Part shown: positions 5,141-53,898 of the stretch, one piece after another
Layout of the letters: every line of letters begins with the position of its first letter
How positions within the stretch are numbered: the first letter of the stretch is position 1
Assembly: GCA_028710885.1 (NCBI GenBank)
Contig: JAQTTG010000001.1
Location: 124,001-188,000, forward strand
DNA: 64,000 bases
Reading direction: 5' to 3'
Source of the DNA: Sulfuricurvum sp.
GTDB lineage: Bacteria; Campylobacterota; Campylobacteria; Campylobacterales; Sulfurimonadaceae
Notes under the pieces: generated by a model
Told to the model about the DNA's origin: nothing
Databases searched by the model: none
What the model saw: only the letters and a program-made list of their open reading frames with translations
Translations under genes and position numbers: made by a program

Positions 5141-5189
5141 TGTGATCCTTGCCGCAAAAAAGTTTGTTATTTTACTGGATAATTGCTTC

Positions 5190-6443: not shown

Positions 6444-6479
6444 AATCGTCTCCGAATCAAATTGAAGAATTGTAGCATA

Positions 6480-6499
6480 ATATCAATATATCTTGATAT
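6480..6499. promoter_or_regulatory. ArsR-type operator between arsB and arsR
   Basis: A perfect inverted repeat, ATATCAA-TATATC-TTGATAT, matches the ATCAA-N6-TTGAT core known for ArsR/SmtB-family operators. It lies 37 bases upstream of the arsB start and 42 bases upstream of the arsR start. One bound repressor dimer could block both divergent promoters. Confidence 0.75.
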
Positions 6500-6541
6500 A
6501 TTATTTTTATTTTGTTACACTGTCACAAATCGGAGGTAATA

Positions 6542-6865
6542 ATGGACGTTTTTTTGGAAACCGTATCGGCACTCAATGATGAAACCCGTATCAAACTCCT
6601 CGCTTTTCTGGATACCCACGGTGCTCTGTGCGTGTGTGATTTACAGGAAAGTTTCGGAATGATCCAGTCACGCCTCTCGCGGCACCTCAAAATCCTCAAA
6701 GACGGGGGGTTTTTACGTGTGGATCGGTGTGGGACATGGGCGTATTACTCTATCCGCTCTCCACTAGATCGATTTCGAAGCGAAGCGCTGGCCGAAATCC
6801 GCTGTCTGGAGATAGAACTCCCTCCACTTAAAAAATTATCTGAAAATGGAGAATGTAAATTATGA
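6542..6865 (+). CDS. arsR: ArsR-family As(III)-responsive repressor
   Basis: The 107-residue winged-helix protein carries the alpha-3 metalloregulatory motif LCVCDL, with Cys30 and Cys32 as the expected As(III)/Sb(III) ligands, and the recognition helix SRLSRHLKILKDGGFL. A third Cys (CRCGTW region, near residue 60) and one near the C terminus (NGECKL) could complete a three-coordinate site. I start at the ATG at 6542, preceded by GGAGGT; the longer TTG start at 6512 would lose this site. It overlaps arsC by four bases (ATGA). It should repress both this operon and arsB through the palindrome upstream. Confidence 0.88.
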   Translation: MDVFLETVSALNDETRIKLLAFLDTHGALCVCDLQESFGMIQSRLSRHLKILKDGGFLRVDRCGTWAYYSIRSPLDRFRSEALAEIRCLEIELPPLKKLSENGECKL

Positions 6866-7266
6866 AAAATGTCCTTATCCTATGTACCGGCAACAGCTGC
6901 CGTTCCATCATGGCCGAAGCACTTATCAATGCCAAGATGGCAGATTGCGTATTCGCCCAAAGCTCAGGAGTCAAAGCGAGCGGCAAAGTCAATCCGAACG
7001 CACAGGCTCTCCTAGAAGAAAAAGGGTATTGGAAAAACGAATACCACTCCAAAGTGATCGATACGGTCATCAATACCCCATTCGATCTTGTTGTCACGGT
7101 CTGCGATCATGCCCATGAGACGTGCCCGATGTTCCCAAAAGCGGTCAAGACGATCCATGTGGCGTTTGAAGATCCAAGCGGCAAGGAGGTGGAAGCGTAC
7201 GCCATAACACTCGATCTTATCGAAGCAACGCTCCTCCCCATCATTAAAATGGAGCTGTGCGACTGA
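6862..7266 (+). CDS. arsC: Thioredoxin-coupled arsenate reductase
   Basis: The 134-residue protein belongs to the low-molecular-weight phosphatase-like ArsC family. The P-loop is CTGNSCRS, with nucleophile Cys8 and Cys13. The redox pair is Cys81 and Cys88 in VCDHAHETCPMF. These are the positions of the Cys10/82/89 triad of the Staphylococcus aureus enzyme. It reduces As(V) to As(III), which the pumps then export. Electrons usually come from thioredoxin; a CxxC mini-thioredoxin is encoded two genes downstream. It overlaps arsR by 4 bases and abuts the permease gene by a shared base. Confidence 0.9.
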   Translation: MKNVLILCTGNSCRSIMAEALINAKMADCVFAQSSGVKASGKVNPNAQALLEEKGYWKNEYHSKVIDTVINTPFDLVVTVCDHAHETCPMFPKAVKTIHVAFEDPSGKEVEAYAITLDLIEATLLPIIKMELCD

Positions 7267-8210
7267 TGTGGCAGGAACTGAGCGGAAAAATCGTACTCGA
7301 ATGGCTGGGGTTTTCTGGCCGTTTCGGCGATGCCGTACACTTTTTTCTCTACGATACGATCAAAATCTGGTTTTTGCTCCTCTCGATCATCTTCGCCGTT
7401 TCGTTTCTGCGCACATGGTTCAACACCGAGAAAGTACGTGCCTATCTGGCAGGAAAACGGGAGTTTACAGGCAATATCCTCGCCGCAGTGTTTGGGATCA
7501 TCACACCGTTTTGTACCTGCTCGGCCATCCCGCTGTTTTTGGGATTTTTGCAGGCTCGCATCCCGATCGGTGTGACGTTTAGCTTCCTCATCAGCGCTCC
7601 ACTGAACAACGAGATCGCGATTGCCATGCTCTTTGGATTGTTCGGATGGAAAATTACCGCCATCTATATTGGATTCGGACTTTTTGTTGCCATATTGGGA
7701 GGCTGGATTATCGGTCGTTTCAACGTCGAGAAATATGTTCTGATCACGGTGCCTCCCCTCTCGGGTGATCTCGAATTACCGACCTATAAACCTGCGTTTA
7801 CAGAGCGCGTTAACGAAGCATGGAGCAATACGCGCGACATTTTCCGAAAAATCTATCTGTGGGTGATGGTCGGGGTCGGGGTCGGGGCGTGGTTTCACGG
7901 CTATGTCCCTGCCGAATTTATCGCAACGTATGCCGGCGGAGATGCCTGGTACACGGTTCCCGTTGCCGTATTAATGGGGATACCGATGTATTCATCCGCC
8001 GCAGGTGTCATGCCGCTGGTCGAAGTTCTAACTCAAAAAGGGATGCTGTTGGGGTCTGCATTGTCGTTTATGATGGCAGTAACGGCACTCAGTCTCCCTG
8101 AAGCGATCATTCTCAAACAAATTCTCCATATCCGTCTGATAGCTCTGTTTTTTGCAATCATTACAGTCGGTATAATGGGGATAGGATTTATCTTTAACAC
8201 CATTTTATAG
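7266..8210 (+). CDS. ArsP/YraQ-like permease (DUF318 family)
   Basis: The 314-residue membrane protein has about eight hydrophobic segments and the family signature TPFCTCSAIPLFLGF (about residues 80-94), with Cys residues implied in ligand handling, and a second related half with GIPMYSSAAGVMPL. ArsP members export trivalent organoarsenicals, but many of these permeases have no proven substrate. I prefer the ATG at 7266, which overlaps the arsC stop (TGATG) and has GGAG 11 bases upstream; a GTG at 7257 is in frame but too close to that site. Its place in an ars operon supports an arsenic-related role. Confidence 0.75.
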   Translation: MWQELSGKIVLEWLGFSGRFGDAVHFFLYDTIKIWFLLLSIIFAVSFLRTWFNTEKVRAYLAGKREFTGNILAAVFGIITPFCTCSAIPLFLGFLQARIPIGVTFSFLISAPLNNEIAIAMLFGLFGWKITAIYIGFGLFVAILGGWIIGRFNVEKYVLITVPPLSGDLELPTYKPAFTERVNEAWSNTRDIFRKIYLWVMVGVGVGAWFHGYVPAEFIATYAGGDAWYTVPVAVLMGIPMYSSAAGVMPLVEVLTQKGMLLGSALSFMMAVTALSLPEAIILKQILHIRLIALFFAIITVGIMGIGFIFNTIL

Positions 8211-9743: not shown

Positions 9744-11459
9744 ATGTTCAACAATATTTCCACAAATGACAAATATATACGCCTCGTATTAGCAATAATA
9801 TTTTTTTATTTCGGAATGGTTTTCCATCCGATGTTCATGCTTGGATCGATTGCGATGTTTATTACAGCAGCTACAAACAGTTGTATTATATATAAGATTA
9901 TGGGAATAAACCGCAAACTGGAGCAATACAATTACTATCTAAGTCTTTTGCCAAAATATACACCTCATCCAACACTCATATTCTCAGAAACTGGCCAACT
10001 CCTTTTTAAAAACAAAGCATCTTATACGTCTGTTCCTCTCTTATTAACATCTCAGCAATTAAACTATGTAGAACATTCACATAATCTGATACATAAAGGA
10101 AATGAATCACTTGCCCGCTACAGTGAGAATCAGAAAACATATCAATTTTTACTCTATGGAAACAAAATCGAAAAAATTATTATGGCGTATGGATCAGATA
10201 TCACAAAAATTGTTGAACGAGAAGCATTACTCCGACACTATGCATTAACAGATGCTCTAACCCAAATTCCAAACCGTCGGCATCTAATCGAAAAATTAGA
10301 ATCTCAATCATCACGGATTCAAATTTTAGCTTTAATTGATATCAAAAACTTTGGTCAAATCAACAGTTTTTACGGGCATGAGATTGGAGACCGCTTTTTA
10401 CAAGCATTTGCAAATTTATTAACAGAGTTTTCAAAGCAAAACAAAACAAAGATGCATCGTATTCAGGGTGATGTTTTTTCTATCTTATCTTCATTAAGTG
10501 ATGAAACAACATGCATTAATAAGTTACATCAATTTTTTGAACAAAAGTTTATCACCCTTGATGAGATCGAATTTTCTGTTGAAGTTACGATCGCATATGC
10601 ATTAAAAAACAATAATGGAAAAAACCTTCTCAATCAGTGCGAAACTACATTAATGGAGGCAAAAAAGAATCGTATTAAAACACTCAAATACGATTCTTTA
10701 GATCACGTTATAGAGCATTATCATCATAATCTTGAGTGTTCAAAACGAATCAAACATATTCTTTCTCATGAAGGAGAGGGGTCGTTTGTCACCTATTTTC
10801 AGCCAATTCAAAATTCTCTAACTGGTGCTATCGAAAAATATGAAGCACTCGCGCGTATTATTGTTAATGGTTCTCTTTATCTTCCGAGTTCATTTATCGA
10901 TCCGGCGAAACAGCTTGGTTTACTTCCAAGAATAACCATGGAAGTACTTGATTCTATACTTCAGCATTATCCAGCTAGTCGTGCAGAATTTTCTATCAAT
11001 ATTACAATACAGGATCTCCAAAAAGAGGGATTCTGTGATGAATTAAAAAAACGGATCAATAGTGTAGGATTTCCTTCTGAAAAACTTGTTCTTGAAATAC
11101 TCGAGGATGAAGAGGTATATGAATATCTCAGTGTTTTAAAAACACTAAAAGCATCCGGTTTCAAAATTGCCATAGACGATTTTGGAACCGGTTATTCCAA
11201 CTTTTCACAATTACAGCGCCTTGAAGTTGACTACATCAAAATAGACGGAAGCCTTATACAATCTATTAACAGCGATCCGAAAAGCTTGGCAGTACTTCGG
11301 ACAATAATCCATTATGCTCAAAATATCGGAGCCAAGACTATCGCTGAATTTGTTGAAAACGAGACTATTGCTAAGACCTTAATAGAAGAAAAAATTGATT
11401 ATTTACAAGGATATGCGATTAGTGAACCACGTTCTCTACTCATAACACTCGATAATTGA
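9744..11459 (+). CDS. DUF2892-like membrane domain + degenerate GGDEF + EAL protein
   Basis: The 571-residue protein opens with a two-helix membrane segment (about residues 8-56) whose pattern ...IRLVLAIIFF...SCIIYKIMGI matches the DUF2892 fold. A PAS-like stretch follows, then a GGDEF domain at about 165-320 whose active-site motif is replaced by QGDVF, so it cannot be a normal cyclase. The EAL domain at about 335-565 keeps YEALARI, the DDFGTGYSN loop and KIDGSLI. The likely role is cyclic-di-GMP hydrolysis or sensing at the inner membrane, with the GGDEF part as a regulator. Its base composition is more AT-rich than that of the ars genes to its left. Confidence 0.8.
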   Translation: MFNNISTNDKYIRLVLAIIFFYFGMVFHPMFMLGSIAMFITAATNSCIIYKIMGINRKLEQYNYYLSLLPKYTPHPTLIFSETGQLLFKNKASYTSVPLLLTSQQLNYVEHSHNLIHKGNESLARYSENQKTYQFLLYGNKIEKIIMAYGSDITKIVEREALLRHYALTDALTQIPNRRHLIEKLESQSSRIQILALIDIKNFGQINSFYGHEIGDRFLQAFANLLTEFSKQNKTKMHRIQGDVFSILSSLSDETTCINKLHQFFEQKFITLDEIEFSVEVTIAYALKNNNGKNLLNQCETTLMEAKKNRIKTLKYDSLDHVIEHYHHNLECSKRIKHILSHEGEGSFVTYFQPIQNSLTGAIEKYEALARIIVNGSLYLPSSFIDPAKQLGLLPRITMEVLDSILQHYPASRAEFSINITIQDLQKEGFCDELKKRINSVGFPSEKLVLEILEDEEVYEYLSVLKTLKASGFKIAIDDFGTGYSNFSQLQRLEVDYIKIDGSLIQSINSDPKSLAVLRTIIHYAQNIGAKTIAEFVENETIAKTLIEEKIDYLQGYAISEPRSLLITLDN

Positions 11460-41453: not shown

Positions 41454-42263
41454 ATGGATATTCTTTCCCAAAATATTCAAAATATAACTGCACTACCGCC
41501 GATACCGGACAGTCTACTAGAAATACAACACATTTCTAATGATCCATATAGCTCATTAAAAGATCTTGCTAATGTAATACAAAAAGATCCTATGCTGACA
41601 GCCAACATATTAAAGCTTGCAAATGCCCCGATTTATGGGCTTGAAGAACATGTAAATACTATTCAGCAAGCAATATCACTCTTTGGTATTTCAAGTATTG
41701 TCGGGTTTGCCATGGTACATGCCATTGAATCCACACTTAATGTCGATTTTTTGCCATACAAAATTAACAGTGCAAAATTTTTAGAAATAGCAAATATGCA
41801 AAATGCACTGGCATTTCACTGGAAAGATGGCTTAGACAATGCAAAAACTAATATTTTTCTCACTGCCTCATTTCTCATGAGTGTTGGTTCTTTGCTCATA
41901 TCAGATTATATTATAAAAGAAAACCTCACGCAAAAATTTCAAAGTGCCTTATCGGAAAACAATACTTTGGACGAAATAGAAACTGAGATTTGTGGTTTCA
42001 GCCATAAGATGATCAGTGCGGCTATGTTTGAAGTATGGGATTTCGATCAACGGATTGTTCAGGCTATTCGTCAAAGCACCTTTGCCGGTGCATCACAAGA
42101 AGCGATTGACATCGTCAGCTCACGTCTTGCAGTCATATCAGCTGCGGTAAACTTAAAAGAGCAATTGAGTGAAAATTCGATTGCATCAGCCATTGAGCTT
42201 GCCAGTAATTTAGGATTAGACGCTCAAGAATTTAAAAATATTATTGAACGAATTAGTGAATAA
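41454..42263 (+). CDS. HDOD-domain protein, first gene of the chemosensory cluster
   Basis: The 269-residue protein is an HDOD domain throughout: ALPPIPDSLLEIQHISNDPYSSLKDLANVIQKDPMLTANILKLANAP is visible at residues 12-60, then SLFGISSIVGFAM. HDOD proteins are catalytically degenerate HD-fold proteins that act as scaffolds in signalling. Its position directly before cheY (34 bases) suggests it is an output or scaffold of the chemosensory system. No partner domain is fused. AAAGGAA precedes the ATG. Confidence 0.82.
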   Translation: MDILSQNIQNITALPPIPDSLLEIQHISNDPYSSLKDLANVIQKDPMLTANILKLANAPIYGLEEHVNTIQQAISLFGISSIVGFAMVHAIESTLNVDFLPYKINSAKFLEIANMQNALAFHWKDGLDNAKTNIFLTASFLMSVGSLLISDYIIKENLTQKFQSALSENNTLDEIETEICGFSHKMISAAMFEVWDFDQRIVQAIRQSTFAGASQEAIDIVSSRLAVISAAVNLKEQLSENSIASAIELASNLGLDAQEFKNIIERISE

Positions 42264-42297: not shown

Positions 42298-42660
42298 ATG
42301 GCAAAAATTTTAGTTGTTGATGACGCAAGTTTAATTCGTATGGTTGCTCAAAAAGCAATCTTAGAAGCTGGTCACGAAGCTATTCTTGCAGAGAATGGTG
42401 CACAAGGAGTTCAGATGTTTCAAAACACTCCCGTAGATTTCATATTTAGTGATATCAATATGCCTGTTATGGGTGGATTTGATATGATTCGTGAGATCAA
42501 AAAACTTCCTGGAGGTTCCTACATCCCTATAGTCATGCTGACTACTGAAAGCAATGATGAGCTTAAACTAGTGGGACGTGAGCTGGGTGTTAAAGCTTGG
42601 TTATTGAAACCATTTAATAAAGAAAAATTTCTTCTTGTAATACAAAAATTGTGTCGATAA
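42298..42660 (+). CDS. CheY-like single-domain response regulator
   Basis: The 120-residue receiver has the acidic pair Asp8-Asp9, the phospho-acceptor Asp52 in FSDINMP, Thr82 and Lys104 (LLKPFN), so all active residues are present. It has AAGGGG 8 bases upstream. It is the only stand-alone receiver in the cluster with an intact phosphorylation site, and so is the likely phosphate target of CheA together with CheV and CheB. Whether it binds the flagellar motor or another output cannot be told. Confidence 0.88.
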   Translation: MAKILVVDDASLIRMVAQKAILEAGHEAILAENGAQGVQMFQNTPVDFIFSDINMPVMGGFDMIREIKKLPGGSYIPIVMLTTESNDELKLVGRELGVKAWLLKPFNKEKFLLVIQKLCR

Positions 42661-42664
42661 TAGC

Positions 42665-42937
42665 ATGAAACTTTTGATTCAAGGATTGACAATACAAGAA
42701 GTTGAAAAAGGATTGTCTGAACTTCAAAATGCTCTCACAAAATGGGATGCTCAAGAATTTTTAGATATGTCTAATATCGAACGCATCGATATGTGCGGTA
42801 TTCAATTACTTTTATCTTTCCAAAAATCTCTCCATGAATCAGGAATGACCTTAAAATTTTCCGGGCTTTCTCCTTTTATACTAGAATCATTCATTTTATC
42901 TGGCTGCTCAGATTTACTTGGAATATCTCATGAATGA
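42665..42937 (+). CDS. STAS-domain protein in the chemosensory operon
   Basis: The 90-residue protein is a single STAS fold: EFLDMSNIERIDMCGIQLLLSFQKSL is the central strand-helix and aligns with the anti-anti-sigma motif, but the usual D-S/T-x-G phosphorylated Ser is replaced (DMCG). It is placed 4 bases after cheY and overlaps cheA by 8 bases. It may bind CheA or a receptor as a scaffold rather than act as a phosphorylation-controlled anti-anti-sigma factor. Confidence 0.75.
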   Translation: MKLLIQGLTIQEVEKGLSELQNALTKWDAQEFLDMSNIERIDMCGIQLLLSFQKSLHESGMTLKFSGLSPFILESFILSGCSDLLGISHE

Positions 42938-45032
42938 AGAACTACAATACTTCTATGAAGATGCAAAAGACCAATTAAGCTTTATGGAGCAAGGTCTCAT
43001 GGATATTGTCGAGCAAGGTGTCAATGATGAAGCAATTGGAGCAATCTTTAGAGCAATGCATACTATCAAAGGTACAGCCGGTATGTTTGATTTTAACGCT
43101 ATTGTCTCTTTTACCCATATTGCAGAAAACCTTTTAGACTCTGTACGTCAAAAAAAAGTCCCCCTTGATGAAAACTTATTAGAATTACTGCTACAAGTTA
43201 AAGACCATGTAGAAAAGCTAATCGAATCAGCTATTGCGAATACCGATTTAAGTCAAGAAACTATTACTACCGATGCTCTTTTACGAAATAGCCTCTCTGA
43301 ATCTTTAACAAGCAAAATTGTAAATAACACTGATATCACCGTTCAGAATGCACCGACAAATGATGAACCGGACGAACGTGTCTGGCATATTTCTCTCCGT
43401 TTAAAAGAAGATTTTTTCAAAACTGGAATGGATATACTCTCTATTTTTGATTTTTTTTCTTCAGTTGGAGATATAATCAGTATCCTGCCTGTCATAGACA
43501 ATATTCCAAATATTAATGATATAGATCCCCTTCACTCCTATATTGGATTTGAAATATTCTTTTTAACTGCGGCACCACTTTTAGAAATTGAAGAAATTTT
43601 TGAATTTGTTGCTGAAGACATTGACCTGATTATTATCTCATCTGATGATCAAGAACAGTTGCAACAATTAATGTTGCAACGTCCTGAAATCATTGATATT
43701 TTAGCAACTGCATCGTTGTATAAACAAACATTGAATAAACAAAATGATGAACAAGATCAAAGTTCATCCACTCCTCAACCAAAAGATGAAACTTTTCTCC
43801 CATCAGTTCCATCCATTGCACAAAATACTTCTTTGTTAAAAGAAAGCAATAACAAAATCACTCAATCAAAAGCAACCTTTCTTCGCGTAGATTTTCAAAA
43901 AATAGATCTTCTTATTAATCAAGTCAGTGAAATGGTAATTGCCAATGCAAAAATTACTCAAATGACTGAAAAATATGATGATCCTGACTTAGATGAAACG
44001 ACAGCTTCTTTAGCAGAAATGCTAGATACCCTACGTGATGCTGTTATGAATATTCGTATGGTTCAAGTCGAAGAGTCTTTCTCAAAACTTCGCAGAAATG
44101 TGAGTGACGTTGCTAAAAAAGTTGGTAAGTCTATTGAATTTACAATAAATGGTGGAGAAACTGAGCTTGATAAATCGGTAGTCGAAAAGCTGAGTGATCC
44201 GCTAATTCATATGTTACGTAATTCAATAGATCATGGGATAGAAAATGCGCAAGAACGTCTTGCTGTTGGTAAACCTGAACAAGGACAAGTGTGGCTACGC
44301 GCACATCCTGAGTCAGGAAGTATTGTTATCGAAATTGAAGATGACGGACGTGGTTTAAATACTCAAGTTATCTTAAATAAAGCTATTACTAAAGGGCTGG
44401 TCTCTCCTAACGATACATTAACTGATGATGCAATTCATATGCTTATTTTTCATCCAGGCTTTTCAACAGCTGAAAACATCTCTGATATCTCTGGAAGAGG
44501 TGTTGGAATGGATGTTGTCAAACAAAATATTGATGCATTAAAAGGCCGTATCGATATTCTCAACAATTTTGGTTATGGATGCAAATTTATTATTACCCTC
44601 CCCTTGACGTTAGCTATTATTGACGGTTTTTTAATTCAAGCCGGATCAACCAAATACATAATTCCCCAAGACATGATCCAAGAAGTTATAGAATTCAAAT
44701 TACATTATTTAGTTGAAGTTGGAGGTTCAACTCTTCTAAATCTAAGAGGGGAACTTCTTCCATTATTAAACATAAAACATCATTTTTCAGATTCTGATAC
44801 TATCATGCACTCTAGAGAAAACATTGTTGTCGTACGGTATGGTTCATATATGGCAGGATTGATTGTCGATGAGCTTTTTGGTGAACAGCAAACCGTTGTT
44901 AAATCTTTAGGTTCATTGTTCCATAAAGTCCCTGGTATATCTGGGGGCTCAATTTTAGGAAGTGGAGAAATCGCTCTCATTTTTGATATTCCTGCACTTA
45001 TTGAATACGTAATCCATCATGACAACAGATAA
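42930..45032 (+). CDS. cheA: Chemotaxis histidine kinase CheA
   Basis: The 700-residue kinase has an Hpt (P1) domain with His44 in FRAMHTIKGTAGMF, a middle part (about 140-265) that may bind response regulators, a P3 dimerisation domain (about 320-390), the ATPase (P4) with HMLRNSIDHGIE, DDGRGL and SGRGVGMDVV, and a CheW-like P5 domain to the end. I start at the ATG at 42930, with GGA 7 bases upstream; the TTG at 42918 is in frame but lacks support. It should phosphorylate the CheY, CheV and CheB of the cluster. Confidence 0.9.
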   Translation: MNEELQYFYEDAKDQLSFMEQGLMDIVEQGVNDEAIGAIFRAMHTIKGTAGMFDFNAIVSFTHIAENLLDSVRQKKVPLDENLLELLLQVKDHVEKLIESAIANTDLSQETITTDALLRNSLSESLTSKIVNNTDITVQNAPTNDEPDERVWHISLRLKEDFFKTGMDILSIFDFFSSVGDIISILPVIDNIPNINDIDPLHSYIGFEIFFLTAAPLLEIEEIFEFVAEDIDLIIISSDDQEQLQQLMLQRPEIIDILATASLYKQTLNKQNDEQDQSSSTPQPKDETFLPSVPSIAQNTSLLKESNNKITQSKATFLRVDFQKIDLLINQVSEMVIANAKITQMTEKYDDPDLDETTASLAEMLDTLRDAVMNIRMVQVEESFSKLRRNVSDVAKKVGKSIEFTINGGETELDKSVVEKLSDPLIHMLRNSIDHGIENAQERLAVGKPEQGQVWLRAHPESGSIVIEIEDDGRGLNTQVILNKAITKGLVSPNDTLTDDAIHMLIFHPGFSTAENISDISGRGVGMDVVKQNIDALKGRIDILNNFGYGCKFIITLPLTLAIIDGFLIQAGSTKYIIPQDMIQEVIEFKLHYLVEVGGSTLLNLRGELLPLLNIKHHFSDSDTIMHSRENIVVVRYGSYMAGLIVDELFGEQQTVVKSLGSLFHKVPGISGGSILGSGEIALIFDIPALIEYVIHHDNR

Positions 45033-45042
45033 AGGAGAAAGC

Positions 45043-45915
45043 ATGAATAATTATACTAGCGGCGAGGAAATTTTCTTTGACGATCATGAGTTGATTGTCA
45101 GTATGACAGATAAAAAGGGATATATCATTTACGCTAATGATGTATTTTGTAAAGTTGCAGGATATGAGCATTCCGAAGTTATCGGGCAGCCACATAATTT
45201 TATACGCCATCCGGATATGCCGCGCAGTGTTTTTAAATTACTTTGGGACCGTGTACTAGCGGGGAAATCCATTTATGCTTTTGTTAAAAATCGTGCCAAA
45301 AATGGAAATTACTACTGGGTTAAAGCATTTGTTACCCCTATTATTGAAAATGGTGAGATTGTTAAAATTGCTTCTTATCGTCGTCCGATTTCACAATTTA
45401 TTAAAGAAGAGATTTCTAAAGTTTATTCTGCTCTCATTGAACATGAAAAATACAATAAACTTGAAGACTCATTTCAATTTTTTCTCGATTATTTAGCCGA
45501 GAGAGGTATTACATACGATCTTTTTATAGATCGCCTTTCTATGAATAAATCCATCAGTAATGTCGGTGTAATGAATATCGATTTTGATCAATTCTATATT
45601 GATCATGTGATTTTTAAACACAACATTATCTATGCCGCTAAAGAAAAAAAATGGTCGACTGAAGTAGTCAAACCATGTTGTTGCCGTTTTGGAGTAAGTC
45701 TCAAACAACTTGATTCCATGCCGTTTACAGCACATCCCTCTTGGGGCAAAGTACACCAATATCATAATGAAGTACATTCTCTTATGCAAGAGTATTTAGA
45801 AAAAGCATCACAAGATGCAGCTTCAAATGTATTAAATGAAATTCTCGATAAAGTCGAAAACGATACGAAATTGCTATTTAGCAATCTTCATAACGCTATC
45901 GATACGTACCGATAA
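45043..45915 (+). CDS. PAS-CZB sensor protein without a receptor signalling domain
   Basis: The 290-residue protein has a PAS domain (about 10-115) of the Aer type (MTDKKGYIIYANDVFCKVAGY, VIGQPHNFIRHPDMPRSVFKLLWD, KNRAKNGNYYWVKAFVTPI). A C-terminal CZB-like zinc-binding domain follows (about 180-275), with FDQFYIDHVIFKHNII, CCCRFGVSL and WGKVHQYHNEVHSLM. These are usually the two ends of a soluble chemoreceptor, but here the MCP signalling part is missing. The strong AAAGGAG site fixes the ATG at 45043. The next gene encodes a receptor, so the two may work together. Confidence 0.75.
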   Translation: MNNYTSGEEIFFDDHELIVSMTDKKGYIIYANDVFCKVAGYEHSEVIGQPHNFIRHPDMPRSVFKLLWDRVLAGKSIYAFVKNRAKNGNYYWVKAFVTPIIENGEIVKIASYRRPISQFIKEEISKVYSALIEHEKYNKLEDSFQFFLDYLAERGITYDLFIDRLSMNKSISNVGVMNIDFDQFYIDHVIFKHNIIYAAKEKKWSTEVVKPCCCRFGVSLKQLDSMPFTAHPSWGKVHQYHNEVHSLMQEYLEKASQDAASNVLNEILDKVENDTKLLFSNLHNAIDTYR

Positions 45916-45942
45916 AGTGTAGTTATGAAAGAGGAAAATAAT

Positions 45943-47769
45943 ATGAATACAAATAACACAAGTTTAGCACATACTATTGCAGCTGTGAGATCAATCAAAA
46001 ACGGTTTTCTTAATGATGAATTTGTTACGTATGATGAAGAGTACAGTGAACTCTTCATGGAGATCAATAGTTTACGAGTTACTCTTCAAAGTATGAATTT
46101 AGAAACTCAAAATATGAATAATGCGATTTTGCATGGAGATTTGGATTATAGGATTGCTACGGATGCCTATCAGGGCGATTTATTTCAATTTATCAATGCG
46201 ATCAATTACAATGTTGATTTATGTGCTTGTGCAACTCGTGATATTTCGTATGCCATCGAACGAATCAAAAACGGTGACTTTACTGCACGTGTAACAACAA
46301 CATATCATGGTGATTTTGATGCATTAAAAAATGCTGTTAATACATTAGGAGAAGTACTTCATAATCTACATGTTGATGCTTCATTATCTGCTCGCGCAAT
46401 GCAAAACGGTAATTTAGGAATTAGGCTTAATGCTCAACACTACAATGGAGATTTTGTCAAAATTGTAGAACAGCAAAATGCATCAACCGAAGCTGTTGTT
46501 ACCGTACTTAATAACTTACAATCCGTTTTAGTTGAATATGTCAATGGCAATCTCAATGCAAAAGTTGAAACTGTATACAATGGTGACTATGCCAATATTA
46601 CAGAAGCCCTTAATACTATGGGAACGATGTTCAATCAATCAATCTCAGAAGTAACACGAGTAATGGCTGCTTTGAGCCGAGGGGAGCTTGGTGAGAGAAT
46701 AGAAATTGAACTTCCGGGAGATTTAGATGCCATAAAGGTTTCAACCAACCAATCGTTGCAAACCTTAGCTGATATTGTTGCTGAACTAAGCGACACGCTG
46801 GATCGTTTAGAAAATGGCGATTTAACACGACGCATCGCTCAAGAGCTCCCAGGCGAACTAGCCCTCATTAAAAATTCTGTAAACAAATTTATTGATAGTC
46901 TGGCTCAAATGATTACAAAAATAGTCATTAGTGCCAATGAAATCACCATGGCTTCTAGTGAAGTAAGCAAATCTTCAAATTCCCTCTCTCACGGTGCAGA
47001 AATACAAGCATCTTCAATCGAAGAAACAACCAGTTCTATAGAAGAGATGAACGGTTCTGTCAATGAAACGGCAAACAATGCTAAAAAAACGAATGAACTG
47101 GCATTTGAAACCTCTGAAATGGCAAAAAATGGTGGTGATTCAGTTGCTAAAACGGTTGAAGCTATGCGTAATATCGCTGACAGAATCAAAATTATTGAAG
47201 ATATTGTGTACCAAACAAATCTCCTCGCGCTAAATGCGGCTATAGAAGCAGCAAGAGCCGGAGAACACGGAAAAGGATTTGCCGTTGTAGCTGCAGAAGT
47301 ACGAAAACTTGCTAAACGCTCACAAATAGCGGCAAAAGAAATCAGTGAAATTACAGGTAAAAGTGTAGCCATTTCAGAAGAAGCCGGATCGTTAATTTCT
47401 CAAGCATTGCCAAAAATTCTCGAGACAGCTGCACTAATACGCGATATCTCTGTTGCAGCAACAGAACAAGATGCCGGTATTGGACAGATCAGTATCGCTA
47501 TGAATCAACTCGATCAAGTAACGCAAGAAAATGCCAGCGCATCTCAAGAGCTTGCAGCAACAGCAACTGAGCTTAATGCACAGGCTTCATCACTGACAGA
47601 TATGATGAAATTTTTTCGTCTTAAAGAAGATAATTCTAACCCTTCTTTCAAAGAGAGCTCTTCTGTCTTTATGAATACGCCAGTTGCTCATGAACAACAA
47701 CGCGATTATACGCTTGGGACTCCACAAACACATCATGAGCTTGACCTTCGTGAGTTTGATAGCTATTGA
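45943..47769 (+). CDS. Cytoplasmic chemoreceptor with tandem HAMP-like repeats
   Basis: The 608-residue protein has no membrane segment. Residues 1-320 contain about seven HAMP-like units of 44-47 residues, each with a [NH]G[DNE][LF] start and a [YE]xGD[FLY] second part, at about residues 20, 64, 111, 155, 202, 247 and 292; the first is degenerate. The MCP signalling domain follows, with the hairpin [36 protein letters not shown] near residue 430. The C terminus ends REFDSY, not a standard CheR/CheB pentapeptide. GAGG lies 8 bases before the ATG at 45943. Confidence 0.85.
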
Positions 47770-47783
47770 TGATGGAGACAAAT

Positions 47784-48290
47784 ATGACGTTGTGGGATGA
47801 TGAAGACGATTTAGACCTTAGTATTAAAGAAGGTGATCAGTATTTATTATTTTATTCCAATGAGGTATTGTTTGGCATTAGTTCTGCAAAAGTTGTTGAA
47901 ATTGTCGAATATCCTGTTATCACTAAGGTCCCCATGACAAATAACGCGGTCTTGGGTGTTGCCAACATTAGAGGAAATATCGTTGGAGTCATCGACCTTT
48001 CGATCATTCTTTGGAATAATGCGACTTCTGTATCAGCACGAACTTCTTTGGTAATCGTTACAATAGAGATTAATGATGAATATCTTAATGTTGGACTTGT
48101 TGTTGATGAAATTTTTGAAGTTGATAGTCTCCCTCAAACTGACATATTGAATCGCCCTCCTTTTGGACTCACAATCGATAAAAAATACATTGATTCGATA
48201 GCAACATATAAAAATAGCTATCTGATGTTACTTAATCTTTCAAATGTTCTAAATGTTGAATATCTCTCACAAGGAGTAGATGCTTCATGA
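47784..48290 (+). CDS. cheW: Chemotaxis adaptor CheW
   Basis: The 168-residue protein has the CheW double beta-barrel: YLLFYSNEVLFGISSAKVVEIVEYPVITKVPMTNNAVLGVANIRGNIVGVIDLS is visible at about 16-80, then LVVDEIFEVDSL. It has an acidic N terminus (DDEDDLDLS). GGAG lies about 7 bases before the ATG at 47784. It links the receptor to CheA. It overlaps cheV by 4 bases. Confidence 0.88.
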   Translation: MTLWDDEDDLDLSIKEGDQYLLFYSNEVLFGISSAKVVEIVEYPVITKVPMTNNAVLGVANIRGNIVGVIDLSIILWNNATSVSARTSLVIVTIEINDEYLNVGLVVDEIFEVDSLPQTDILNRPPFGLTIDKKYIDSIATYKNSYLMLLNLSNVLNVEYLSQGVDAS

Positions 48291-49228
48291 ACCTATCATC
48301 AGAAAATGAGTTTGATTATATGATGGACGAAGATGAGCTTGACCTCGTAAAATTAGTAACTTCAAATGCTAATGATGCAAATCAATACCTGATATTTGAA
48401 GGCTCAAATCAAGAGTTTTATGCAATTAATGTTGCAAAAATCGAAGAAATTTTGGTTTATAACGAAATGGAAGTAGCTAAAAATACCGATGGCGGATTTA
48501 TAATAGGAACAGCTGAAATTAGAGGTAAGATGACCCCTTTACTCATTTTTGATGCTTGGTTTGGAAATCCGATTCTTGAAAAAAATCAGTATGAATTAAT
48601 GATCCTAGCCTCTTATGGAGGTCATAGAATCGCTATGATTGTTAAAAAGATTGAAGATATCATTGTTATTGAATCAAAAGAAATGCAAAACACTTCACAA
48701 AACAACATCAATACAACATTTATAGCTAATATAAAAATTCAAGGAACTCAACATCTGTGTACAATTTTTGACAGTGACAAAATGCTGTTAGATATTTTTC
48801 GCGAAGAAACAGAAGAAACACATTCAGCATTAGAAGCATTATCTCGCCGCGAAATATCAGCTAAAACAATCTTTTTTGCTGATGATAGCCGCTTTATTCG
48901 TCAAATGGTACAAAAATTATTTCAAAAATTAGGGGTAGACTCCAAAATTTTTGAAAATGGGTTAGACCTTATAGAAGCCCTAAAATCATTTCCAACTAAT
49001 GAGATTGCTTTAATTATTACTGATATAGAGATGCCGATAAAAAGTGGTCATGAAGTTATATCAGCAGTTCGTGGCGATCAACGATATCGTGATATCAAAC
49101 TGATTGTTCATACGAATATGGCCAATGAACAAATGGAAGATTCATTAATACGACAAGGTGTTAATCGAGTGATAGGAAAGATAAATATTGCATCATTAGA
49201 ATCAGCGATTGAGGATCTTATACGATGA
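48287..49228 (+). CDS. cheV: Chemotaxis protein CheV (CheW-receiver fusion)
   Basis: The 313-residue protein has a CheW-like domain (about 30-175) with YLIFEGSNQEFYAINVAKIEEILVY and IGTAEIRGKMTPLLIFDAW, then a receiver domain (about 195-310) with FADDSRFIRQMV, the phospho-acceptor Asp in IITDIEMP and the Lys region VIGKINIA. CheV is an adaptor and phosphate sink typical of Campylobacterota. The Lys motif is GKIN rather than KPF, a mild change. It overlaps cheR by 4 bases. Confidence 0.86.
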   Translation: MNLSSENEFDYMMDEDELDLVKLVTSNANDANQYLIFEGSNQEFYAINVAKIEEILVYNEMEVAKNTDGGFIIGTAEIRGKMTPLLIFDAWFGNPILEKNQYELMILASYGGHRIAMIVKKIEDIIVIESKEMQNTSQNNINTTFIANIKIQGTQHLCTIFDSDKMLLDIFREETEETHSALEALSRREISAKTIFFADDSRFIRQMVQKLFQKLGVDSKIFENGLDLIEALKSFPTNEIALIITDIEMPIKSGHEVISAVRGDQRYRDIKLIVHTNMANEQMEDSLIRQGVNRVIGKINIASLESAIEDLIR

Positions 49229-50037
49229 TGGTTTCATCCATTACGCTCAGTGCTCAAGAATTTACCCTGATCCAAAAAATTGTATTTGACGAAGCTGGTA
49301 TTACTTTGGATGAGAGCAAACTCAGCATGGTTCAAAATCGTCTTTTTAAACGGATGAATCACTACAATTTTGCAAAATTCAATGATTATATTCGTGTTGT
49401 ACAATTTAATCGTGATGAACGTATAGAGATGATTAATCAAATAACCACTAACGAAACCTATTTTTTTCGTGAATCAGCCCATTTTAATTTTTTAGAATCA
49501 GTTGCACTCCAACATAAATCGTATGAACTTTTTAGTGTATGGAGCGCTGCTGCTTCTGTAGGTGCGGAAGCGTATTCTATTGCTATGTTACTTGATGAAA
49601 TACTTGGAGAAAAAAACTACGCTATTCTTGGTACTGATATCAATACTGATGTTTTACAAAAAGCACGCCTTGGTCTGTATCCTGAAAGTTGGGTAGATAA
49701 AATACCGCTTAATTACCGAACGAAATATTGCCTAAAAGGTAAAGGTCCCTATTCTCGACAATTTTTAGTTTCACCAAATATTATTAATCATGTCACATTT
49801 AAAGAAGCAAATCTTTTGAAAGAGCAAACAGGTATTGGACAATTTGATATTATATTTTTACGTAACGTTTTAATCTATTTTAATGATGCGACGCGTGAAA
49901 TTGTTGTCAATAATGTTATTAAAAATTTAAAAGTAGGAGGATATCTCATTATTTCTTTAACTGAAACAATAAAACATCTTCCTATTCGTGATTTAACTCA
50001 TATTGAAGCATCAATCTATAGAAAGGAAGCAGAATAA
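49225..50037 (+). CDS. cheR: Chemoreceptor methyltransferase CheR
   Basis: The 270-residue enzyme has the N-terminal helical domain (QNRLFKRMNHYNFAKFNDY), the NETYFFRES segment, the SAM site SVWSAAASVGAEAYSIAMLLDEI (about 105-127), LGTDINTDVLQKAR and the FDIIFLRNVLIYFND motif. It methylates Glu residues of the receptor. The SAM-site Cys and Gly-Glu-Glu of the usual SAACSTGEEPYS are Ala and Val-Gly-Ala here. The gene overlaps the ParA-like gene by one base. Confidence 0.86.
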   Translation: MMVSSITLSAQEFTLIQKIVFDEAGITLDESKLSMVQNRLFKRMNHYNFAKFNDYIRVVQFNRDERIEMINQITTNETYFFRESAHFNFLESVALQHKSYELFSVWSAAASVGAEAYSIAMLLDEILGEKNYAILGTDINTDVLQKARLGLYPESWVDKIPLNYRTKYCLKGKGPYSRQFLVSPNIINHVTFKEANLLKEQTGIGQFDIIFLRNVLIYFNDATREIVVNNVIKNLKVGGYLIISLTETIKHLPIRDLTHIEASIYRKEAE

Positions 50038-50861
50038 TGATTCATAATAATGCAAAGATTTTAACTGTATCCACAAAAGGTGGCGTTGGAAAATCAACTA
50101 TAGCAATTCAACTCATTGCACCTGCTTTATTTGAGCTCTCACTTGGAAAAAGTATCAGTTTTTATGAATGTGATGATGAAAACAGTGATAGCTTAAGTTA
50201 TGGAGCTTCTCGTCTCGTTAATCGTAATCTAGTCCGTGTTGATACACCATTTTTACGTGATGAGCTTCTAGAAATAATGTTACAAGAGCAAAATACCTGT
50301 ATTGATATTGGGGGAAATAAAAGTACTACACTTGTTCTCGAAGCATTAGATTCATCAGGCGCTATACATTTTGTAGATTTAGCAATTATCCCTATGCTTG
50401 ATGGAGAGCAAGATGGTTTAAATGCCCTTGACGTTTACAATAGACTGCGAAATATGCGCCCTGAATTACCTATTTTATTCGTATTGAATCGTGTCAAAGA
50501 CATCCGATATGTTGAACATCAATTTGATAATTATTTTGGAGATATACGTGGTGTATTTCAAAATATTCACTCTATAAAAGACCACATAGAAGAAAAAGAT
50601 ATCTCCAACTACATCGCCATATCTGAAAGTGATATGATTAAATATAGCCGCCGCTTTGGGCTAACCGTATATGAAATTGCAACACAAGAACGTGATTTTA
50701 TCAGTCGTTTAAAAAATGATGGAATGGTTAAAGCTGATTTGACAGAGGCTAAATTACTAAGTTTCAAACATTTTGTTGAACGAGAGTGCAGAAGCTATTT
50801 AACCAATACCCTAATGCCTGCGATTAATATAATTCATTCTATACTCAGGAGAGAAGCATGA
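50037..50861 (+). CDS. ParA/Soj-like ATPase of the chemosensory cluster
   Basis: The 274-residue protein has the deviant Walker A KGGVGKST (residues 14-21) and a ParA-like end of strand with DIGGN and VDLAIIPMLDGEQDGLNALDVY. It lacks an N-terminal DNA-binding domain. ParA-like proteins position large cytoplasmic complexes, and PpfA/ParC-type members do so for cytoplasmic chemoreceptor arrays (known in Rhodobacter and Vibrio). Lying between cheR and a pseudo-receiver gene, and with a soluble receptor in the same operon, it is best read as the positioning ATPase of this array. Confidence 0.78.
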   Translation: MIHNNAKILTVSTKGGVGKSTIAIQLIAPALFELSLGKSISFYECDDENSDSLSYGASRLVNRNLVRVDTPFLRDELLEIMLQEQNTCIDIGGNKSTTLVLEALDSSGAIHFVDLAIIPMLDGEQDGLNALDVYNRLRNMRPELPILFVLNRVKDIRYVEHQFDNYFGDIRGVFQNIHSIKDHIEEKDISNYIAISESDMIKYSRRFGLTVYEIATQERDFISRLKNDGMVKADLTEAKLLSFKHFVERECRSYLTNTLMPAINIIHSILRREA

Positions 50862-51763
50862 ATACAGCTTATAATGGCTATTTACAAGTATTAGCTCATA
50901 AAAAACGAATTCTCGTATTTGATGATGATACTGTTGTTCTCCGCATGCATCCGGAATTTTTAGAGGCATTCGATACCTATAATTGCTACTCAGCAACTGA
51001 AACAACAGATACTCACTTAATCTCCATTCTTACAGTAGGTAAAATTGACGCTGTAATTATTGAATCAGCAAATCCGTCTGATACACTCAGAATTTGCCGC
51101 CATATTAATCAATACGATTGGAAGATTGCACTTGTCGTTATTGTTCCAGACGGTGCTTTGGTCCCCGAATACCGAGAATCGAATGCCATTGTAGATACTA
51201 TGCTTTGCCGCCCGTTTGAGCAATCCGTTCTCATTAAAAAAATGGTTACTGCTTTAGCTGCCAAACAAGCAATGATGCAGTTATCCCATTCTTTAGGATT
51301 AGAATCGCTATTAAATGATCAAGGTGATATCGAGACATTTAAAAATACATTTGAAGGAAATATTCTTTTAATATGTGAAACACTGAAAAATCATGCACAA
51401 CGACTTGAAAATGGTGAATTATCACCAGAATTATTTAAAGATATAGCCAACTCGGTGGAAAAAATATCCCAAATATTCAGTCACCATCATTACACAAAAC
51501 ATGTTGCCAAGATTTTTGATAATTTGGCACTATATCTAGAACAATATGATTTTTCAAATACCAATATCTCCGTTTTAGAAGGATTTGATTTCCTGACAAA
51601 AGTGGTCGAAGATATTATTGTTTATATGAAAGATTTTTTCATCAATAGAATTTTTTCAGATGTCTACGTATTCGAACATTCACTTGATAATTCCATAGAA
51701 TTTATGAAAAATCATTTGGAAAGTCGCGCTGACACCCAAAGCGAAATGGAGTTTTTTGAATGA
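50858..51763 (+). CDS. Pseudo-receiver protein 1 of the chemosensory cluster
   Basis: The 301-residue protein begins with a receiver-like domain (about 15-130). The acidic pocket Asp22-Asp24 is kept, but the phospho-acceptor position is Glu69 (DAVIIES) and the conserved Lys is Arg (LCRPFEQ). The rest is helical, with TKHVAKIFDNLALYLEQYD and a C-terminal YVFEHSLDNSIEFMKNHLE segment, ending SEMEFFE. It is not phosphorylatable in the usual way, and the Glu may mimic the phosphorylated state. It overlaps the ParA-like gene and cheB by 4 bases each. See the related protein at 52807. Confidence 0.65.
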   Translation: MNTAYNGYLQVLAHKKRILVFDDDTVVLRMHPEFLEAFDTYNCYSATETTDTHLISILTVGKIDAVIIESANPSDTLRICRHINQYDWKIALVVIVPDGALVPEYRESNAIVDTMLCRPFEQSVLIKKMVTALAAKQAMMQLSHSLGLESLLNDQGDIETFKNTFEGNILLICETLKNHAQRLENGELSPELFKDIANSVEKISQIFSHHHYTKHVAKIFDNLALYLEQYDFSNTNISVLEGFDFLTKVVEDIIVYMKDFFINRIFSDVYVFEHSLDNSIEFMKNHLESRADTQSEMEFFE

Positions 51764-52794
51764 TAAAAGTGTTTGTTATAGATGACTCAGCCATGGTTCG
51801 TCACGGTTTTAGAAAATTGCTAGAGGGGATTGAAGACATTCAACTCATAGGAGAAGCAGAAAATCCGATTGATGCTTTTGAAGTTTTTAAAAAAACAGGT
51901 CTTCCTGATCTATTTCTACTAGATATCGAAATGCCAAAAATGGATGGGCTTACTTTTTTAAAAAAAATCAATGAGCAGCGTCCCATTCCCGTTATCATCT
52001 GTTCAACATTGACCGTAGAAGGATCACCTGCTGCCATTGATGCATTACGCTTAGGGGCAGTTGAAGTAATTGAAAAGCCAAGATTAAACCTGAGTGGCTT
52101 TTTTCAAGATTATAAAAATGAATTTATTGATAAAATTCGCGCTGCAGCAGCCTCGAAAATCAGCCATATTAAACACCAAACTTTACAACCGGTTGTCAAA
52201 AAACCCACAATTAGCACAACACCATCAAAATCAATTGTTGCCATAGGTTCTTCTACAGGTGGTGTTCAAGCTATCGAAGAGATTATTGTCCATTTAAAAG
52301 CCGGCCATCCGGGAATAGTCATCACACAACATATGCCTCAAGGATTTACAAAATCATTTGCAAACAGACTTGATCAATTAGCACCACATTCTATAGTTCG
52401 TGAAGCAGTCAATGATGAAATAATAGAAAATGGTAAAATACTTATTGCCCCGGGTGGATTTCATATGGAGGTTTATAGTATCGGTGGTCTTTTCAAAGTT
52501 TTAGTTAAAGATTTCCCAAAAGTAAATTCTCACAAACCAAGTGTCAATGTTTTATTTAAATCAGTAGCCAAAAGTGCCGGCAGAAATGCCACTGGATTTA
52601 TACTAACTGGGATGGGAAGTGATGGCGCATTGGGACTTAAAATGATGAAAGATGCAGGGGCACATACCTATGGAGAGTCTGAAGTTTCGGCTATTGTTTA
52701 CGGTATGCCACGTGTCGCCAAAGAAATGGGAGCAATAGATCGAGAGCTCTTACTCACAGAAATAGCTTCAGTTATAAATTCAACTATTGTATAA
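51760..52794 (+). CDS. cheB: Chemoreceptor methylesterase CheB
   Basis: The 344-residue enzyme has a receiver domain with Asp55 (LLDIEMPKMDG) and Lys (IEKPRLN), a linker, and a methylesterase domain with the catalytic set Ser164 (IGSSTGG), His191 (ITQHMPQG) and Asp288 (GMGSDGALG), matching the E. coli triad positions. It demethylates or deamidates the receptor. It overlaps the preceding pseudo-receiver gene by 4 bases. The following pseudo-receiver gene starts 12 bases later. Confidence 0.9.
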   Translation: MIKVFVIDDSAMVRHGFRKLLEGIEDIQLIGEAENPIDAFEVFKKTGLPDLFLLDIEMPKMDGLTFLKKINEQRPIPVIICSTLTVEGSPAAIDALRLGAVEVIEKPRLNLSGFFQDYKNEFIDKIRAAAASKISHIKHQTLQPVVKKPTISTTPSKSIVAIGSSTGGVQAIEEIIVHLKAGHPGIVITQHMPQGFTKSFANRLDQLAPHSIVREAVNDEIIENGKILIAPGGFHMEVYSIGGLFKVLVKDFPKVNSHKPSVNVLFKSVAKSAGRNATGFILTGMGSDGALGLKMMKDAGAHTYGESEVSAIVYGMPRVAKEMGAIDRELLLTEIASVINSTIV

Positions 52795-52806: not shown

Positions 52807-53898
52807 ATGGATAAAAACACTATTTCAATTATTGCTGAACTCGCAAAAAGAATGCGTATCATGATAGTCGATGCTGATAATACTATGCTAGCGGCTTATA
52901 AAGATTTTTTAGAATCATTCTTTGTTGAAGTGCATTGTACTGAACAATCCAAAGACGCTTATTTACTCTGGCGCGCTGATACAGACCGTTATGATATTAT
53001 CATAATGGCTATGGATGATGCAAATGCAAGCAATCTTGAACTTTTTAAACGAATACGGAAAAAATCATATGAACAAAAAGTGATTATCGCTCTAGCAAGT
53101 AATGACTATAACGAACTACGGGATATTGTATCCAACGGAATTGAAGGTGTAATCACAGGACCCGCAGACAAGACATCTCTTTTAACTATATTTTATCGTT
53201 CTCTTCGTGACATTTCTGATCGTAAATTATTGCATTCGTATATAACACAATTGAGTATTATGGCGAAAGACAATGCAGACCTTCGTGTCCGTACCAGAAA
53301 CCAAAATGTATTTATTGAAAATATGTCAGAAGCAGAAAATCCAGATATTTCATCGGAAGAAATAACCAAATCAACCAATTCACTCGTCGAAAAATATGCT
53401 ATACGCTCATCATTTAAAGATGACTCAATGGCAAAAGCAATACGTGAAATTGATGTTTTTTCTTTGGAAAAAATCGATGTATTCCGTGAAAAAATTCATA
53501 CCTATTATCAACAATTAATTGATTTGGATATTGCAGATGCAGCTACAAGCAAATCAGCCATAATAGTAACCTCAAATGGTCTGTTAAAAATGATCGAAGT
53601 CATCAACTCTTTAGGCTTATTTCCAGTTACCGTTCAAGCAGCATTGCATATGACTACTTTCCTAAAAGAATTAGATCCAAATGTATTTGAAGACGAAGAG
53701 AAAAAACATCTAATTATTGACATTTTAACAGCTCTCTTTGATGATTTGGACAAATGGATTGAAACCGTATTTATTAAACAAGATTTAGAGTTTGTAAATT
53801 ATTTTGATGCATCATTTGCGAATACATGTTTGGAACTCGAAGCTGCATTTACTTCAGAATCCGTAAATAATGATGATGATGCACTAGAGTTCTTTTAA
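52807..53898 (+). CDS. Pseudo-receiver protein 2 of the chemosensory cluster
   Basis: The 363-residue protein begins with a receiver-like domain (about 15-130; RIMIVDADNTMLAAYKDFL), but the phospho-acceptor position is Ala68 (IIIMAMDD) and the Lys region reads ITGPADK. The rest is helical, and the end (LEFVNYFDASFANTCLELEAAF and a final DDDALEFF) can be lined up by eye with that of the protein at 50858. It is therefore a related, non-phosphorylatable protein. It is likely a scaffold or phosphatase-type partner of CheY/CheA. Function not known. Confidence 0.62.
   Translation: MDKNTISIIAELAKRMRIMIVDADNTMLAAYKDFLESFFVEVHCTEQSKDAYLLWRADTDRYDIIIMAMDDANASNLELFKRIRKKSYEQKVIIALASNDYNELRDIVSNGIEGVITGPADKTSLLTIFYRSLRDISDRKLLHSYITQLSIMAKDNADLRVRTRNQNVFIENMSEAENPDISSEEITKSTNSLVEKYAIRSSFKDDSMAKAIREIDVFSLEKIDVFREKIHTYYQQLIDLDIADAATSKSAIIVTSNGLLKMIEVINSLGLFPVTVQAALHMTTFLKELDPNVFEDEEKKHLIIDILTALFDDLDKWIETVFIKQDLEFVNYFDASFANTCLELEAAFTSESVNNDDDALEFF

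Follow-up and report, generated by a model that had tools for sequence, protein, structure and literature searches.

The gene at positions 45943-47769 of the window (the whole stretch of DNA that was analysed, 64,000 nucleotides) encodes a soluble methyl-accepting chemoreceptor in which the presence of a seven-unit HAMP rod is close to certain. As judged from gene order and family precedent, this receptor likely takes its signal from a separate PAS-CZB protein, and the two together are best understood as a version of the CetA/CetB energy-taxis receptor that is poly-HAMP and free of the membrane. The receptor gene and its parts are listed below with the evidence used for each.

45943-47769, + strand: soluble poly-HAMP methyl-accepting chemoreceptor (608 aa from ATG 45943)
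45943-46077, + strand: HAMP unit 1, degenerate, without the second glycine (two helices and a connector in the model; GDF kept in orthologs)
46069-46209, + strand: HAMP unit 2 (model, unit comparison, single-unit scan)
46207-46347, + strand: HAMP unit 3 (HAMP_2 E 2e-8; conservation)
46342-46482, + strand: HAMP unit 4 (model, unit comparison, single-unit scan)
46480-46620, + strand: HAMP unit 5 (HAMP_2 E 1e-7)
46615-46755, + strand: HAMP unit 6 (HAMP_2 E 5e-5)
46750-46890, + strand: HAMP unit 7, adjoining the signalling domain (HAMP_2 E 5e-6, HAMP E 4e-5)
47008-47058, + strand: methylation-site-like EE pairs (sequence inspection)
47095-47574, + strand: MCP signalling domain, class 34H (Pfam MCPsignal; HMMER alignment)
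47752-47766, + strand: C-terminal CheR-tether pentapeptide EFDSY (genome MCP and ortholog comparison)

The start codon at 45943 is preceded by a good ribosome site (GAGGAAA), and an alternative in-frame ATG at 45925 would add six residues. Receptor residue numbers (glycines, motifs) are counted from 45925, and helix numbers of the structural model from 45943. Scanning the whole protein against Pfam recovered HAMP_2 (E 7e-35), HAMP (4e-15), and MCPsignal (8e-32), with no other domain above the cut-off. The glycines of the seven units were located at residues 27, 71, 117, 162, 208, 253, and 298, which gives spacings of 44, 46, 45, 46, 45, and 45 residues. A strict GxL...GD...N pattern fitted six of the units, and never more than one in 2000 composition shuffles. 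When units were scanned singly, HAMP matches were clear for units 3, 5, 6, and 7 (E 2e-8 to 5e-5) and weak for units 2 and 4 (E 0.04 and 0.1). Unit 1 scanned alone gave no Pfam HAMP match and was counted as a HAMP unit because its GDF is conserved in orthologs and because of the structure model.

The sequence-only reading had described a soluble receptor with about seven tandem HAMP-like units and no visible ligand-binding domain, and this description was borne out: seven units (one of them degenerate) were recognised by Pfam together with the model, the Pfam scan contained no ligand-binding domain, and no membrane span was predicted. Transmembrane anchoring was ruled out given that the receptor has no hydrophobic membrane segment (maximum Kyte-Doolittle-19 value of 1.09). 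The spacing had been proposed to alternate between 44 and 47 residues; the measured values reject such a fixed alternation, and what survives of it is an alternation by subtype that is limited to units 2-5. Unit 2 is closer to unit 4, and unit 3 to unit 5, than to their neighbours, and the glycine-to-glycine connector lengths of units 2-5 are 13, 12, 13, and 12, so these units alternate between two subtypes. Units 6 and 7 are alike. The DExG motif is absent from residues 1-330 and a single glycine is present in units 2-7, not in unit 1; the mark of a poly-HAMP chain is the lack of DExG combined with a single glycine at the connector-AS2 junction (PMC3570549).

The receptor was modelled as a monomer with AlphaFold2, using nine orthologs as input (mean pLDDT 83.6, pTM 0.51), and the low pTM is expected for a long rod modelled in this form. 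Eight long helices (residues 4-19, 32-63, 78-109, 124-154, 170-200, 215-245, 260-290, and 305-338) and seven short connectors were predicted, forming a helix-connector-helix repeat of about 45 residues. The top three PDB matches found by Foldseek were the three Aer2 poly-HAMP crystal structures, and the structure prediction that had been proposed as a check thus came out in favour of HAMP-like units. VIA-align Z was ~8 against these crystals and likewise against single HAMP structures, a value within chance reach for helical repeats; the HAMP assignment is therefore carried by the sequence evidence. The receptor would presumably form a homodimer with parallel four-helix HAMP bundles.

The candidate sensor is encoded directly upstream.

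45019-45915, + strand: PAS-CZB protein, the proposed detached sensor (Pfam, structure and ortholog comparison)
45082-45414, + strand: Aer/CetB-type FAD-PAS domain (Aer PAS 8dik, E 8e-28; model Z 19.7)
45604-45795, + strand: CZB-like domain with candidate zinc ligands H196, C222, H249, and H253 (Pfam CZB, 21.9 bits; ligand columns)

The PAS model was superposed on the Aer PAS crystal structure 8dik over 127 aligned residues (Z 19.7, rmsd 1.1). FAD is contacted in Aer by H53, R57, W70, N85, and R115 (PMC9668731), and the equivalents of Aer H53, R57, H58, W70, N85, and R115, along with that of the stabilising G28, were invariant in all 15 PAS-CZB orthologs. The Pfam CZB score of 21.9 bits falls under the cut-off of 29.4, but the match spans 63 of the 64 positions. 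The 3His/1Cys ligand pattern of the CZB proteins TlpD, McpA, and DgcZ (PMC8262984, PMC13370339) is kept in most members (13/15), being broken in locus L066 and having its cysteine replaced in L078. Unlike in those proteins, the CZB of the window is joined to a PAS without an output domain and the motif Trp is missing: the sequence is CRFGVSL in place of CX(L/F)GXW(Y/L), and 14 of 15 orthologs have lost the Trp. A sequence comparison of the CZB with solved structures gave no match to DgcZ, and the Foldseek lists for the PAS-CZB protein were filled by the PAS domain, with the CZB fold left without structural confirmation. The PAS-CZB architecture is absent from the seven CZB groups listed in PMC8262984, and a text search of one open-access library found no paper on such a protein. 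At the CZB cysteine, a CCC triplet (residues 220-222) is shared by the nine closer orthologs, counting that of the window, and by L074, and its third cysteine alone fits the zinc-ligand position. In L077 (Sulfurimonas, 10001-11141), a PAS-only protein without CZB lies beside a poly-HAMP receptor that is cut by the contig end, a natural test of CZB dispensability. Given the invariant PAS pocket, the loss of CZB ligands in L066 and L078, and the absence of the CZB in L077, the PAS was taken as the constant input and the CZB as optional.

Both genes lie within a che operon, the other members of which are as follows.

41454-42263, + strand: HDOD protein upstream of cheY (Pfam)
42298-42660, + strand: CheY (Pfam)
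42918-45032, + strand: CheA (Pfam)
47766-48290, + strand: CheW (Pfam)
48287-49228, + strand: CheV, CheW plus receiver (Pfam)
49225-50037, + strand: CheR with GxG loop insert (profile search; insert alignment)
50037-50861, + strand: ParA-like ATPase with deviant Walker A, KGGVGKS (profile searches, homolog search)
50858-51763, + strand: receiver-like protein without a Pfam match, conserved in these operons (profile and locus comparison)
51760-52794, + strand: CheB (profile search)
52807-53898, + strand: receiver-domain protein closing the operon (Pfam, locus comparison)

Complete PAS-CZB genes were present in 9 of 151 family genomes sampled and in 7 of 397 phylum genomes (window's genome included), and all full-length matches in the genome collection belonged to Campylobacterota, as judged by title or by sequence identity with genomes of the window's family or order. 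In each of the 15 distinct loci found, the PAS-CZB gene is directly upstream of the receptor gene, and the partner is always membrane-free with five to seven HAMP matches plus a degenerate first unit. The order cheY, cheA, PAS-CZB, receptor, cheW, cheV, cheR, receiver gene, cheB was kept with small variations, followed as far as contigs reach. The C-terminal half alone (residues 160-300) of the receiver-like protein is recognisable in distant loci. Aer-type PAS genes without CZB have an MCP directly downstream in 51 of 70 loci; about half of these MCPs have a membrane segment, and they gave 0-2 HAMP matches, counted with a profile built from the PAS-CZB group that may undercount HAMPs in other loci. 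The split PAS/MCP design is thus general, and its seven-HAMP soluble version is special to the PAS-CZB group.

The closest known arrangement is CetA/CetB of Campylobacter jejuni (PMC2628428, PMC3558505), in which a separate Aer-type PAS protein is likewise encoded beside a HAMP-containing chemoreceptor, and the PAS family to which CetB belongs was already suggested to pass its signal on to a HAMP protein distinct from it (PMC2628428). As in CetB, the FAD-pocket residues are kept and the Aer-stabilising positions naturally hold G and V/I. CetA differs in being a membrane protein with one HAMP, whereas the window receptor is soluble with seven; further, the PAS of the window is joined to a CZB, and receptor and PAS-CZB have a che operon to themselves. 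The receptor was not filed as CetA because it has neither the membrane anchor nor the single HAMP. On contig C13 (~198231-200150), ~27 kb downstream and outside the window, a CetB-like PAS gene was observed ahead of the gene for a membrane receptor, so the genome holds both membrane and soluble split receptors.

The suggestion that the rod receives its signal from the upstream PAS-CZB protein gained strong, indirect support from the adjacency in 15/15 loci and from the Aer/CetB FAD-type PAS, and the contact itself is presumed. The PAS would bind FAD and report the redox or energy state, and the CZB would presumably bind zinc and add a zinc or oxidant input. The PAS-CZB protein would then dock laterally on the HAMP rod, possibly along the N-terminal half. 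Which face it would use is guesswork, since units 3 (0.59) and 7 (0.60) are only modestly more conserved than the others; a conserved stretch formed by the end of unit 2 and unit 3 contains near-invariant N94, D98, and Y127. The HAMP units would switch one after another and alter the activity of the CheA encoded in the same operon, with a signal direction from sensor to kinase, an array location, and an output that are likewise presumptive. CheR, tethered by the C-terminal pentapeptide, and CheB would adapt the signal. Such a HAMP-chain relay is an old question that has usually been studied where sensor, membrane, and HAMP are fused. Because the sensor and the seven-HAMP rod appear here as two separate soluble proteins, the relay could be reconstituted in vitro from any number of units, the sensor being added or left out. 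The pair would extend the CetA/CetB principle beyond membranes, and Aer-type flavin sensing and zinc/oxidant sensing would be joined within a single small protein, the PAS-CZB.

The adjacency of the two genes may reflect shared regulation only. An unlikely alternative is that the HAMP rod serves as a spacer and clustering scaffold, setting array height and oligomerisation, while the PAS-CZB protein acts elsewhere, for example on CheA or CheW. The model for this would be FrzCD of Myxococcus xanthus, also a soluble receptor with tandem HAMPs, in which a basic tail and two HAMPs precede a signalling domain without an obvious sensor; its tail binds the nucleoid, its di-HAMP has been proposed to control oligomerisation, and the HAMPs tune DNA binding and oligomer state (PMC12077210). 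Lysine-rich N-terminal tails are frequent in orthologs whose operons have no ParA gene (FrzCD-like in L047, L048, L049, L050, L052, L053, and L054), unit number varies from 6 to 8 among orthologs as would be expected of a spacer, and the rod of L187 has no adjacent sensor. However, FrzCD has two HAMPs and a DNA-binding tail, whereas the window receptor is tail-less, unlike its closest sister (79% identical), which has a basic tail, and has a ParA in its operon. The strict pairing with PAS-CZB in 15/15 loci, and the genetic tie of CetB-type PAS proteins to HAMP receptors (PMC2628428, PMC3558505), also argue against a rod that acts only as a spacer.

A quite improbable reading, of a kind put forward for poly-HAMP osmosensor kinases, makes the rod its own sensor of a physical or cytoplasmic cue (ionic strength, pH, or crowding), with PAS-CZB as a mere modulator. 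No sensor domain is fused to the receptor, and a poly-HAMP histidine kinase chain (9trk) was aligned to residues 104-328 with an E of 1e-6. Further che clusters, found by searching with the HAMP rod alone, bear on this reading from both sides. L187 encodes a pure poly-HAMP receptor together with a ParA, with no adjacent PAS gene and no visible sensor, so rods do occur without a sensor encoded next to them. In the receptors of L179 and L185, a HAMP is followed by an in-line cysteine-rich PAS, further HAMPs, and the signalling domain, and those of L180 and L182-L184 combine a membrane four-helix domain with HAMPs. The CheA tree grouped the two in-line PAS loci with the 15 detached-sensor loci in one clade (100/100), within which the in-line pair lies beside two detached-sensor loci (93/90), and it placed the membrane-sensor group outside this clade. 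A single kinase lineage thus works with both detached and fused PAS sensors. Because an Aer-type sensor always adjoins the receptor in the PAS-CZB group, and because the same type of rod and kinase occurs in sister operons with a fused PAS or membrane sensor, a separate input appears to be the normal condition. The in-line PAS of L179:12199-14361 and L185:5004-6131 is rich in closely spaced cysteines and histidines (CYNQFHADDCN..CACDMAM..MCDHECQ), which may form a metal or iron-sulfur site. The L185 receptor (5004-7530) is encoded in two overlapping frames, and a HAMP segment in it is repeated directly, a pattern that suggests a frameshift, repeat slippage, or an assembly error.

On sequence grounds, the receptor belongs to a che system that is F8-like and accessory. 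Compared with Tsr (36H), its signalling domain shows two symmetric 7-residue gaps, one heptad fewer on each side of the hairpin, which implies class 34H. The 34H class has been assigned to F8, and the 40H and 28H types to F3 (PMC9321776). The CheR-tether pentapeptide (motif as in PMC7184735) is carried by this receptor only among the 16 MCPs of the genome, and by 12 of 14 complete orthologs. The CheR of the operon has the GxG loop insert, which Salmonella CheR shares and B. subtilis CheR lacks; the 34H receptor with pentapeptide and the CheR with insert thus lie in the same cluster, and the P. syringae F8 system is reported to have this combination (PMC11253619). Because the genome also encodes an 823-residue F3-like CheA (contig C11) and a third CheA, the system was regarded as accessory. 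Membership of the receptor in the main flagellar (F3) array, for which this F3-like CheA and the 16 MCPs could speak, is highly improbable given a signalling domain that falls two heptads short of 36H (the types assigned to F3 being 40H and 28H), its status as sole pentapeptide-bearing MCP, and an operon with its own CheA, CheW, CheV, CheR, and CheB.

Two other systems resemble the accessory system of the window. The F8 receptor PSPTO_0912 of Pseudomonas syringae (PMC11253619) is also a 34H receptor with a pentapeptide, unique in its genome, with a GXX-insert CheR in its cluster; it has a transmembrane region, whereas the window receptor is a poly-HAMP rod with a detached sensor. Aer2 (McpB; Pseudomonas, Vibrio; F7; PMC7184735, PMC3570549) is soluble and poly-HAMP with a pentapeptide tail and an accessory che operon, and is the best NCBIfam and Foldseek match of the receptor. 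Unlike the window receptor, which has no fused PAS and a domain of 34H length, Aer2 contains an in-line heme PAS and is 36H. Orthology to Aer2 was rejected, as the NCBIfam Aer2 score was 267 bits against a cut-off of 1200 and derived mainly from the C-terminal part, and the receptor has no in-line PAS and is not 36H.

The ParA-like gene overlaps its che operon neighbours at both start and stop. It is absent from all 13 sister operons whose contigs span cheR to cheB, and the window operon is the sole detached-sensor locus found with a ParA. A one-off insertion, as this absence suggests, was rejected once homologs turned up in further che clusters with poly-HAMP receptors: within the family sample, each of the 11 close homologs (window's included) lies in a che cluster, adjoining cheR or cheB, and the clusters of strong homologs mostly have poly-HAMP receptors. 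Three weak homologs in the family sample are not in che clusters. The ParA-like ATPase is a possible counterpart of the PpfA/ParC array-positioning proteins, and its recurrence between cheR and cheB in this operon family makes it a testable partner for placing cytoplasmic arrays. Among ParA-linked soluble receptors, the four complete ones have no lysine or arginine in the first 15 residues, whereas at least three are present in 11 of 14 ParA-less receptors. Net charge differed between the two groups (Mann-Whitney p 0.012, a post hoc comparison of related sequences with uncertain start codons), and ParA-linked versus basic-tailed receptors are a lead on array placement only. It is tentatively suggested that a single Campylobacterota che-operon family might combine a poly-HAMP rod with swapped sensors (a membrane four-helix domain, an in-line PAS, or a diffusible FAD-PAS/CZB joining flavin redox and zinc inputs), its soluble arrays being perhaps spaced by a dedicated ParA or a basic DNA-binding tail. 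L075, titled as a Helicobacter pylori PMSS1 MAG, grouped with Arcobacter-type loci in the CheA tree, and its organism label is probably wrong.
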